From NCBI GenBank assembly GCA_002104935.1, contig MCGT01000031.1, positions 267,324 through 331,323 on the forward strand: a DNA stretch of 64,000 nt. Reading direction: 5' to 3'. A program made the translations under genes and the position numbers. The notes beneath the pieces are model-generated. The model made no database searches, was not told where the DNA came from, and saw nothing but the letters and a program-made list of their open reading frames with translations. Position 1 is the stretch's first letter. Every line of letters starts with the position of its first letter. The stretch comes from Hesseltinella vesiculosa (taxonomy: Eukaryota > Mucoromycota > Mucoromycetes > Mucorales > Cunninghamellaceae). Shown piece by piece: positions 60,032-64,000 of this stretch.

Positions 60032-60781
60032 TTTTCATTGCTCTGTGTTTTGCTTTTCATGTTCCATTCTGCTTACCAGCGAGAAGTTTCTTCTTGTTTC
60101 ATCCTTAAAATCAAGCAGCACAACAATAGAATGTCAGAAAAACAAAGTGAAAAAAAAAAAATCAAAGCACAGAAGTGAAAAGAAATAGGAAGAAAGAAAG
60201 GAAAAAAAAAATTCAGCCTGATCCTTTTTATTCAAGCCCAGCTCCACTTTTCTCCCTCAACGGGAAATGCGAAATGGTGAGCCAATTAAAAACGCTTTAA
60301 TATTGATAATACTAAAGTGAGGAAGCGCGATTAAACCAACGAAACGAGGTACAAAAATACCATGAAGATTAGCACTGGTTCATGAAGGCGGCGTGAATGG
60401 AGAAAAAAAAAAGTGAGAGTTGCTGCATGTACTTTTCCATTTAAGTTCGCATTGAATTGGTTATTTATCATCAATACAAAAATGAATCTTTCCACTTCAA
60501 ACCTGTTCAAGTTACCAAACTGGATATTCGTCGTTTACTTTTCATCTCGTGATCTGGAAGTATCATGCCCCACTTATTCCTTGTATTCTTGAAGGTTGAA
60601 AAGGTAGTAAATAAACAAATCCTTCCTACAGACTTTGCAGGAGAGAGAGAGACAGAGGGTGCCAGAGGCAAGAAAAACAACGAGCGGGGTTTATTGAAAA
60701 GGGCGTGCCGCGTTCAAAGAGTTCTTTTTCTTTCTTTACTTTTTTTTTACAACCTTGCTTCAGCATTTATTTACATTTAAA
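60032..60781. other. Divergent region between the LENG8-like gene and the Fanzor-like gene
   Basis: 750 bases with no gene recognised. The part near 60,100-60,230 is A-rich and probably the leader and promoter of the LENG8-like gene. The left end of a mobile element carrying the Fanzor-like gene would be expected here, but no clear inverted repeat can be confirmed without the right end. Confidence 0.45.
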
Positions 60782-63700
60782 ATGGGGCGTCATATAAGAA
60801 GAAGGCAATTACGAATAGATGCAAATAAGACTTGGCTGTATAACTTGAAAATGAGAAAATATTACATTCTCAAAGGTAAATCCTATTATTGACCTTGTTT
60901 GTTTATTTTTTAAAACGCGTTGCTTCATGATCTCCTTCTCCTCCATTAGGTTTAAAGTGTAGTTTGTGCCACGGATTAGGGCACAAACGAGCAGATTGTC
61001 CTTTCAACCGTTAGTATTGATCGCCCCTACATTGCCAGTTTCTAACATTTACTTTTAAAGGTGGCAAACGAAAGTCCAAAACCCAGCTCAAAAGGGCCAA
61101 CAAGCTTCTACGTAAGGCTGGCTCCATGGCCCGCAAGGAAAAGCAGAAGAACCCTGATGGGAAAAAAAGGGCCAAGAAATTCAAGTTGAAGGATCTCCAG
61201 TCTCTCTTGCTTGGTACCAATTTCAAAACCCGTGTTCGCAAGATATCTCTTTGTCATGCTCTTAACATGGCCCAAGACAATATCCAAGACCAACGCCAAG
61301 CAAAGATGGACGTCCAAGAAACCATCCTCCTATGGGTCGATCACATCCGCTATGTCTCCATCTGCGCCCAGTCGTTCTTCAACTATTATGTTCTGCATGT
61401 CATGTCTGAGCGTTCTGTGGTCAACGATACTGTATTCTGTAAAGATTTTTTCTATGGGATCTGCCAACTGGTGACTGGCAAGGCTGTGACCTCCCCCAAC
61501 TCGAACATACCTGATCCTACAGCAATTTATCACCATTACCAGTCTCTCTTGGGTGACTGCCGCTTCGAATTATATTGGATCAAGGGTGCTAGTAACATGA
61601 TTTCTGAAATGGCGGATGAGTTAGCCCAAATCAATCTCTTGGCTGTGACTGAACGTTTTGAAGAAAAGTGTATCAAGTATATTCGCTTTCGCTTGGTCAA
61701 CACCCTCAAGGATCAGCTGTCTGACGGCCAGGTCAGTAAGAAAGAGAGAGAAAATAAGAAGGCGCGAGTTGCTCACTTTTTTTTTTTGACAAAGGAAATG
61801 CCAAAGTCCGGTTATATTATGAACGCATGCCAGAATATTTACGACACTGTCACCTGTCAAGAAAAAGTTGAACCACTGTCAGAAAATAGCCCCGATCTCT
61901 TGCGAACGATCGTCTCAACATTTATCTCAACCCTGAACTTTGGTCCAAGTCCAGTTACGCTGAAGGAACTTACTGCAAGTCCTGGAACATATTTGCAAGT
62001 ACTTTACCGACTATTGCAAGAAATGGAACAAGGCAACGACCTGGAACCATCTGAGATGGGGCATGACGATGTGCATGATCAAATGGACACAATCACCATG
62101 AAGCTCATACTATCATCTAACATGGACTATCAGGTGCTGCCTCGTCGCTGTCGCCAAAGAGTATTCAAGGGCATGATGCAATTGCTGGAGCACCCAGACA
62201 ATCCAATTGACATCCCCTGGAGTCTACCGGAAGAATTTAAGACCTGGCTGTCAGATCTCGTCCTTGGCCTTCGTGTAAAGTTGGCAAACTCCAAGGCGAA
62301 ACTGGCTGGCACTGACATATCAGCAGACCTTTGCTTCTCCTCCTCCACCATGAGGCAATCCAAGTCAACAGCCCTCTTTTCCCTTGTGCCGACTCTGTCC
62401 TTTCGTCGCCGGTTTATCACTTTGGATGCCTACTCATTTCGGTCAATTCTCAAGCAAGCCGGTATAAACGTGACTGTGCCGTCGGGTGACCATTCTCATC
62501 CTTATATCCGCCTTGCTCGCGATGCCACTCTCTTTTTCACCTACCTGGACTTTCAGAAGGCTCGTCTTCGAAAATGGTAACTGAGGAACATTGTGATGGC
62601 AGGAATCGTGACTGATTTTTTTTTAGTACTACCGCATTTTTGCATTATCCAACGCTCACTGAACCTGACAGCGACAGTGATGATGACGCTGGTGGTGCTG
62701 ATCCCGATCTTGACAACGGTGATGCCGAAGATGATAGTGGCAGTGTTACTGATGGAGATGCTAATGACATCGGCAACCCTGCTGGCGGTTCTGATGGTGC
62801 TCACAATACCCCATCGGAGGGCGAAATCGACGATGGTGATCAAGACAAAGGCGACCATGACAGATCATCAGATCAAGGCAGTTTTACTGACGAGACAACA
62901 CACCAGGACGTTGGCAGCGATACTCAATTGACTGAAATCGATAGTAGCGATGAAGAGGATGATGATGATCCTGCCTCCTTGGTATTTTCCAACCGTGTTC
63001 GCACTGATGGGCTTCAATTGGAATTTATCTATGGCAAGCGCGCACCCCAAATTGAACTTCCTGATCTCGAAATGGACGACTTGCATGGTGAACCACGAGA
63101 ACGTATGCAGCTGTATGGAGTCGATCCAGGACATAGTGAGCTTTACACATCTGCTCAAGAAGACAAGCACCTCCCGGGAAATGATCGCACTGCCCCGGCA
63201 CTGAGCACAGCAGCAACAGCACCAATGGTTGGCATGGTCGGTACATGCGATTCTCGAATAATGAATGGCTATCACTCTCTGGTCGACATGGGCGCTCATG
63301 CATTCGAAAACGTTGGCTCAAAGATTCTGGCATGGAGGAGATCCTCACGCGTATACCACCAGCAAAAACTAGCCATCCTGACCGCTTCATTCAGCGCACC
63401 ATCTATGTATTCCAACACCTTGATGATATCACCGAACATTTTGCTGATGACTATACCCTGCATCGGTTCCTGGACTATTGTGGGGACAAGAAGATGTGCG
63501 CAGAAGTCGTCAACCACTTCGTCCATGGTGGTAACAAGTACAAACACCAGAAGGAAGACTATGATAGGTATGCACTACACAAAAAAAGGTGTGATGCCTG
63601 GACTAACTTTTTTTATAGCCGCAAACTTCCAGTGATTGCCTATGGTGGTGCATTGTTTGCGCAAACCCGTAGAGGGAAAAAGTCCACTCGCTCCGGAAAA

Positions 63701-64000
63701 GTGTACAAAGCACTCAAAATAGCGGAAAAGCAAGGGTTACTACTTGTTACAAAAACAAATGAATATAACACAAGCAAGGTAAATCATGAGGAGAGGGAAA
63801 AATGAAGCGCAAAATGACCTTTTTTTTTCTATCTCATTTTTTTTTACAGGTCTGTCCAATGTGTGATGAAAAAGACCTTGAACACAAGACCGTCGGTGAC
63901 CCATTCCTGCGAGGTGCAAGCATGTCTTTGTGGTCGGTTCTACAGTGCCAACACTGTAAAATCAACTGGGACAGGGACAAGCTTGCGGCTTGGAATATGT
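60782..64000 (+). CDS. Fanzor (eukaryotic TnpB-like RNA-guided nuclease), C-terminus cut by window end
   Basis: A probable Fanzor nuclease, the eukaryotic relative of TnpB/Cas12 that uses a guide RNA from its own element. Exons: 60782-60875, 60950-61009, 61061-61731, 61795-62576, 62627-63778 and 63850 onward, about 970 codons so far. The N-terminus is basic (MGRHIRRRQLRIDANKTW), followed by a CCHC zinc knuckle (CSLCHGLGHKRADC) and a Lys-rich stretch. A long helical region and an acidic insert (DSDSDDDAGGADPDLDNGD) precede the nuclease. RuvC-I is YGVDPGHSELYTS (Asp codon 63123). The RuvC-II position has YGGALF without Glu, but an alternative Glu lies in TNEYNTSK (codon 63761). The zinc finger is VCPMC...QCQHC, and RuvC-III is NWDRDKLAAWNM (Asp codon 63976). 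The frame shifts once between 63,150 and 63,235 with no good intron. 63,568-63,618 may be a 51-base in-frame intron. Confidence 0.85.

Follow-up and report, generated by a model that had tools for sequence, protein, structure and literature searches.

The window analysed here is a stretch of 64,000 nucleotides from Hesseltinella vesiculosa (Mucorales), C25:267324-331323, and carries at its right edge a gene for a Fanzor1-type nuclease within a transposable element. Contig C25 ends at 331323, which is window base 64000, and thus the Fanzor gene is cut there and no extension is possible. This copy is a decayed, frameshifted and truncated member of a Fanzor element family. By comparison with its siblings elsewhere in the genome, the window gene was resolved into seven exons and six GT-AG introns of 50-74 nucleotides, with the ATG at 60782 (Table 1). 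An initial annotation of this DNA, made from the letters alone, had pointed to a nuclear, intron-bearing gene with the ordered motifs GVDPGH, CPxC...CxxC and WDRDKLAAWNM. These motifs were found in the window at the places it had given, and a nuclear, intron-bearing gene was supported, with six introns in the window and the same exon model open in seven of 14 siblings. The proposed length of more than 960 codons was not reached, as the window exons up to 64000 total 953 codons, frameshifted and not all in one frame. A bacterial TnpB contaminant was ruled out by the introns.

A DNA search with window positions 60700-64000 identified the window copy and 14 siblings at 95-98% identity over nearly the whole 3.3-kb query, and, besides these, two that are partial or rearranged, at C1:114-118 kb and at C67:350 kb. 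In a script alignment, the window copy was 94.5-98.4% identical to the 14 siblings. When the window exon model was applied to these 14, with the C1:114-118 kb and C67 copies left out of the count, an open frame of 989-999 amino acids was found in seven (L018, L019, L020, L022, L023, L024 and L025, of which L024 has one GC-AG intron), and the remaining seven had earlier stops, at codons 83 to 720. The mean ratio of nonsynonymous to synonymous substitution rates (dN/dS) was 0.29 in 21 pairs of intact copies, so selection acted on the protein during the spread of the family. A codon-position split as a measure of selection was set aside because it is out of frame past the window frameshift, and dN/dS was used alone. 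Left and right termini are common to the copies, the flanks vary, and the element measures 3.9-4.4 kb in ten copies with both anchors. This multi-copy element with shared ends bears out the earlier proposal of a Fanzor encoded in a fungal mobile element.

Within the element, a GA-rich dinucleotide run lies at window positions 60640-60660, and many short matches there are repeated in L017 and L028, giving a length that differs among copies. A near-perfect palindrome (98%, 1 kb; L024:5089-6116) starts a few bases from the end of the Fanzor element in L024, and its arm has at least 37 more matches outside C5, as in a fold-back-type repeat. The right flank of L024 is the start of another repeat, and no empty site for this copy was found among the 40 candidates scored out of 111.

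The Fanzor-type nuclease suggested by the motifs was substantiated by profile searches. PF07282 (the TnpB/Fanzor zinc-finger RuvC-III domain) matched an intact sibling protein with 33.3 bits versus a cut-off of 26.3, and was matched by all five Fanzor families compared. A profile of five families searched against PDB had the structure of SpuFz1 from Spizellomyces punctatus as top match (E 1.5e-11), followed by TnpB-like L79, LaTranC and Cas12m; with a second family set SpuFz1 was again on top at 2.2e-10, and in a looser search chance matches appeared at E above 0.6. When the protein was aligned with four further Fanzor families from this genome, no change was seen at D693, E889, D937 or any of the four zinc-finger cysteines (numbering of the intact protein). 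D693-P694-G695, E889 and S893 are invariant in both this five-family alignment and a six-family one, and D937 in the former (one row of the latter ends ahead of the zinc finger). In the intact protein, six residues lie between E889 and C896 of NEYNTSKVC, which makes E889 the alternative RuvC-II glutamate. The DPG motif and a glutamate six residues ahead of the finger are Fanzor features (PMC10711439). The long Fanzor1 motif D-X(125,275)-[TS]-[TS]-X-X-C4 finger-X(5,50)-RD (PMC3627910) reads in the intact protein as D693, T892-S893, C896-C899, C927-C930 and R936-D937. Judged by its sequence, the gene is a Fanzor1, a eukaryotic relative of TnpB with D-E-D motifs, and its nuclease would presumably be guided by RNA. 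It is a new member of the Fanzor1 family, relatives of which are already known in fungi.

Table 1. Features of the element and its gene in the window, with the Transposase_21 loci of the genome
Feature	Position	Strand	Basis
TTCTC, candidate target-adjacent motif at left edge of element	60250..60254	+	13 left flanks
TCN trinucleotide (here TCC), candidate 3-bp target duplication; right partner past contig end	60253..60255	+	6/10 copies
Fanzor transposable element, cut by contig end; siblings continue for about 325 bp, ending ...TTTTTTTCTGTAGTG	60256..64000	+	sibling alignment
GTGAGC, splice-donor-like hexamer in left end	60277..60282	+	AATGGTGAG in window copy
Exon 1	60782..60875	+	gene model open in 7/14 siblings
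Exon 2, including C-x2-C-x4-H-x4-C zinc-knuckle-like motif at 60958-60999	60950..61009	+	sibling gene model
Exon 3, N-terminal half	61061..61731	+	sibling gene model
Exon 4, N-terminal half	61795..62576	+	sibling gene model
Exon 5: acidic linker (about 62660-62980), TDG motif, RuvC-I; frameshift downstream of RuvC-I	62627..63567	+	sibling alignment
GVDPGH, RuvC-I with Fanzor DPG signature	63117..63134	+	D-P-G invariant, 5- and 6-family alignments
Exon 6: NEYNTS from 63758; alternative RuvC-II Glu codon 63761-63763	63619..63778	+	E889 of intact protein invariant
Exon 7, start only, ends with contig: zinc finger and WDRD RuvC-III	63850..64000	+	PF07282 at residues 876-944, intact sibling
Zinc finger CPMC, CQHC; WDRDKLAAWNM	63853-63864, 63946-63957; 63967 to window end	+	read in window
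Transposase_21 matches	C85:533881, C42:1886, C39:9070, C46:131037, C65:786, C5:656828, C34:1239439		profile search

The intact protein, of about 990 residues, has a CCHC knuckle at the N-terminus, followed by a large half and then by an acidic linker. Its RuvC domain carries the DPG, alternative Glu, zinc finger and RD motifs. Particular to the family are the compact knuckle KCTLCHGLGHKRADC and the acidic linker, some 100 residues long, that precedes RuvC-I. The CCHC motif KCTLCHGLGHKRADC is taken here to be a zinc knuckle; a Pfam search gave a sub-threshold zinc-finger match for it (E 0.021). Most Fanzor1 proteins have 600-700 residues (PMC11423790), and some reach about 800 (PMC10711439). 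The large N-terminal half is probably WED/REC-like, with these domain names being provisional. It had been considered unusual, and the gene a candidate for an undescribed system. An undescribed system was not supported: with the N-half alone as query, other places in the genome were found at roughly 24-30% identity, and over its whole length the protein aligns at 22-32% with other Fanzor families present in this genome, which indicates a diverged Fanzor N-half and no foreign domain. In a literature search that left many subscription papers outside, nothing was found on Fanzor combined with CACTA, CCHC or Mucoromycota, and for Fanzor in Mucorales only PpFz1 was found.

The genome of 27 Mb has at least 46 matches to PF07282, none of which lies at copies of the window family because an intron splits their domain. 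As all matches lie elsewhere, several further Fanzor families are present. Two GVDPGH families, L051/L052 and L053, have 32% identity each to the window family and a similar exon order, and comprise 12 and 8 places in our own grouping of the list from the N-half search. L051/L052 resembles the window family in a knuckle-like CxxC..H stretch at the start, and both families differ from it in being without the acidic linker. Related GVDPGH places were seen at C1:486, C4:759581, C11:462620, C45:1069351, C23:1271662, C72, C46 and C15. Several of these are within about 2 kb of contig ends and may be subtelomeric, or repeats may have broken the assembly.

The element has inverted ends. The right end, read in reverse complement, is CACTACAGAAAA, with CACTAC, in most copies and has CACTG or CACTT in four. 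The left end is C[AT][CT]CAC[AG]GGAAA, for instance CACCACGGGAAA in L022, with variants besides in single copies, and never reads CACTA. These ends are presumably loosely CACTA-like, and the transposase that moves the element would probably be of this type. The right end CACTACAGAAAA and the left end CACCACGGGAAA of L022 align by eye without a gap, the corresponding position in a sister Fanzor element reads CACTAGAGGAAA, and Transposase_21 (PF02992, CACTA/EnSpm) has seven matches in the genome (Table 1) and none in control genomes. Movement by a Helitron2-like, Crypton-like or some other unclassified route, with the fuzzy 5' ends known from MCi-2 of Mucor, has a considerable chance, if short of an even one, of being the right explanation instead. 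It would account for the lack of any left end reading CACTA, for left-terminal bases that differ among copies, for the 12-14 bp direct repeat of L029 and the altered left end of L021, and fuzzy 5' ends with 11-12 bp duplications are described in Mucor (Bao and Jurka, PMC3627910). Plavaka transposase had no matches in the genome, which would also fit this route, yet no control genome matched either. It is the ungapped alignment of the ends, the sister element and the Transposase_21 matches that speak for CACTA-like ends. L029 has, in place of the first bases at its left end, 12-14 bp copied from the right flank (TCGTGACACAAAAA), perhaps left behind by repair from the empty site.

Short relatives carry the same ends. 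The left 393 bp as query gave 23 matches, including short matches at non-family places (C45, C34:291.5 kb, C39:166.8 kb, C10 and C29). At the left end, 346 bases of L047 and 191 of L048 align with the window family; at the right end, the sister Fanzor element at C12:116.8 kb has 27 and 95 bp, respectively, in common with them. L047:240-640, L048:238-510 and L054:1487-1581 are internally deleted relatives, and L048 holds both Fanzor-element ends. With its left end as in the window family and its right end as in the C12:116.8 kb sister, L048 resembles the ghost loci described for the element Spu-1 of S. punctatus. A search with the 233-bp right end of L024 hit 16 places, each a copy of the window family, and thus gave no right-end ghost loci. 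A pattern of the ends with three mismatches allowed occurred at 20 places (15 family copies, the sister, L048 and three others); a reversed control pattern occurred at two, so the three others may be due to chance. No second gene was noticed in the element, and a search aimed at a serine recombinase was not made. The Transposase_21 loci are possible mobilisers of the element.

At the left edge of the element, TCTC is present in all 13 readable flanks and TTCTC in eight of them, compared with TCTC in 1.5% of background 10-mers, and conservation outside the left end stops at TCTC. This count leaves out L021, L026, L027 and C67, in which the left end is missing or altered. A 3-bp duplication of TCN was seen as a weak signal: TCN flanks both sides in six of ten two-ended copies, a level reached by shuffled pairings in 3.4% of trials, uncorrected for the 180 length/offset combinations tried, and L021, L026, L027, C67, L015, L025 and L029 are not in this test (end missing or altered). 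In Spu-1, CA is conserved outside the left repeat, a TA duplication is putative, and the target-adjacent motif (TAM) of SpuFz1 is CATA (PMC10432273, PMC3627910). In our own reading, the outside CA and the duplicated TA together equal this CATA, and the same rule would give (T)TCTC here, which is therefore the predicted TAM. The conserved (T)TCTC might, with a probability of roughly one in three, instead be the outermost sequence of the element and neither target nor TAM. Its presence in all 13 readable left flanks would be expected then, and the short relatives L047 and L048 are without TCTC. Two damaged copies argue for a target motif: L029 has lost the first bases of its left end and still has TCTC upstream of the duplicated flank, and L021, with an altered left end, has CTCTC by eye.

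Taken together, the window very probably holds the 5' nine-tenths of a decayed, non-autonomous transposon copy with a Fanzor1 gene. The likely mechanism is the following. The Fanzor1 protein would bind an omega RNA transcribed from the right end of the element and extending into the flank, and this RNA would guide it to the matching empty site adjoining (T)TCTC. The empty site would be cut by Fanzor1 and its repair would copy the element back, while an unlinked transposase acting on the loosely CACTA-like ends would move the element. Both the omega RNA and this cut-and-copy role are presumed. Several results weigh against this proposal. The TCN signal is weak, and the absence of TCTC from L047 and L048 means that the motif could belong to the element. 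Folding of the right end gave no omega RNA signal (z = -0.46), and an Rfam search for an omega RNA found nothing. In the pattern search no transposase shares the ends, and none was reached from the 20 end-pattern places. A phmmer search of PDB with the single protein had no match, and the last exon or one sister protein as query yielded no useful match. In a large protein database, the single protein found no homologue, and the six-family profile found only the window's own NCBI model (hypothetical protein DM01DRAFT_1338899, P0002; partial, 454 amino acids). A single-sequence AlphaFold model of this annotated fragment had a mean pLDDT of 35.5 and conveys no confidence.

Relative to the siblings, a single-base frameshift lies between RuvC-I and the remaining RuvC domain of the window copy, whose spliced model runs into a stop at codon 855. 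Frameshift and contig end together make it a truncated pseudogene. The NCBI model starts internally (MRQSKSTAL) inside exon 4, skips the GVDPG stretch and with it the RuvC-I aspartate, and retains the reading frame downstream of the frameshift. Its path looks like an annotation detour around the lesion, and surveys based on annotation would not take this copy for a complete Fanzor. It is improbable that the window copy is functional, with the frameshift being a sequencing error or the splicing round it in the NCBI model being real. Only a single lesion was seen that keeps this copy from being open as far as the contig end, and the NCBI model does keep the downstream frame. However, without the RuvC-I aspartate a protein would be unable to work as a nuclease, the window copy is matched in length at the frameshift site by none of the 14 siblings, and seven of the 14 are broken as well. 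A domesticated host gene with a single function, as introns and purifying selection (dN/dS 0.29) could suggest, is very unlikely indeed and was rejected on copy number, as the window copy and its 14 dispersed, near-identical siblings have common ends and different flanks and half of the siblings are decayed.

The ends of the element also resemble splice sites. The left ends of the window copy and of 11 of 14 siblings contain AATGGTGAG, and the stretches of L021, L026 and L027 did not cover a normal left end and were hence uninformative. Of the 13 readable right ends, 11 contain CTACTAAC and two CTATTAAC, followed by a T-tract and then TAG (nine), CAG (two) or AAG (two) before TG. The end of intron 5, GGACTAACTTTTTTTATAG, and the right end of the sister, GCTGCTAACTTTTTTATTTTTCCTCTAG, are of identical layout. 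No frame spanning any of the 11 joined empty sites was longer than 119 codons, which places these copies outside long coding exons. Several copies are within 300 bp of a longer open reading frame reading away from them, counted from stop to stop and without annotation. The terminal AGTG belongs to the inverted repeat, and thus the resemblance may be a by-product. That the ends double as splice sites, with AATG/GTGAGC on the left as donor and CTAAC, T-tract and [TCA]AG/TG on the right as acceptor layout, is a long shot. If true, splicing could take out all 4 kb of the element like an intron, or could join the element's transcripts to genes that it precedes. IStrons are bacterial elements bearing TnpB, and such an element would be their spliceosomal counterpart, combined with CACTA-like capture and the (T)TCTC target motif.

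Among known systems, SpuFz1 of Spu-1 has in common with the window family that it is a Fanzor1 with D-E-D including DPG and with the alternative Glu. Spu-1 is likewise multi-copy, with inverted repeats, conserved bases outside the left repeat and no linked transposase. Spu-1-1p has 633 amino acids in a single open reading frame, a putative TA duplication and the CATA TAM (PMC10432273, PMC3627910), whereas the window family has about 990 amino acids, six introns, the CCHC knuckle, the acidic linker, TCN and (T)TCTC. One place in PMC11423790 prints the motifs of SpuFz1 and GtFz1 swapped. PpFz1 from Parasitella parasitica, also of the Mucorales, is a Fanzor1 of the same order with an insertion beyond the usual plan of 600-700 amino acids (PMC11423790). 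This insertion (FRI) of roughly 100 amino acids lies inside RuvC, in contrast to the acidic linker ahead of RuvC-I in the window family; PpFz1 was absent from the PDB profile matches and was compared by description only. Like the window family, the Fanzor1 elements MCi-2, MCi-4 and MCi-5 of Mucor circinelloides come from a mucoralean genome (PMC3627910). The ends of MCi-4 are MuDR-like, with 9-bp duplications; MCi-2 has fuzzy 5' ends, 11-12 bp duplications and in part a partial Crypton transposase; and MCi-5 has 6-bp duplications and in part a Harbinger transposase (Bao and Jurka 2013, PMC3627910). The window family differs from these in its loosely CACTA-like ends, a possible 3-bp TCN duplication and no transposase seen.

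The family is useful through its intact siblings, which offer seven open frames for a protein larger than the usual Fanzor1. Dispersed insertions of one family allow a target-adjacent motif to be proposed from the genome ahead of an assay. If (T)TCTC is right, the pattern of Spu-1, in which outside bases and duplication together give the TAM, would apply to another, distant element as well. If confirmed, CACTA-like capture would extend the list of Bao and Jurka, which has Helitron, Mariner, IS4-like, Sola and MuDr.

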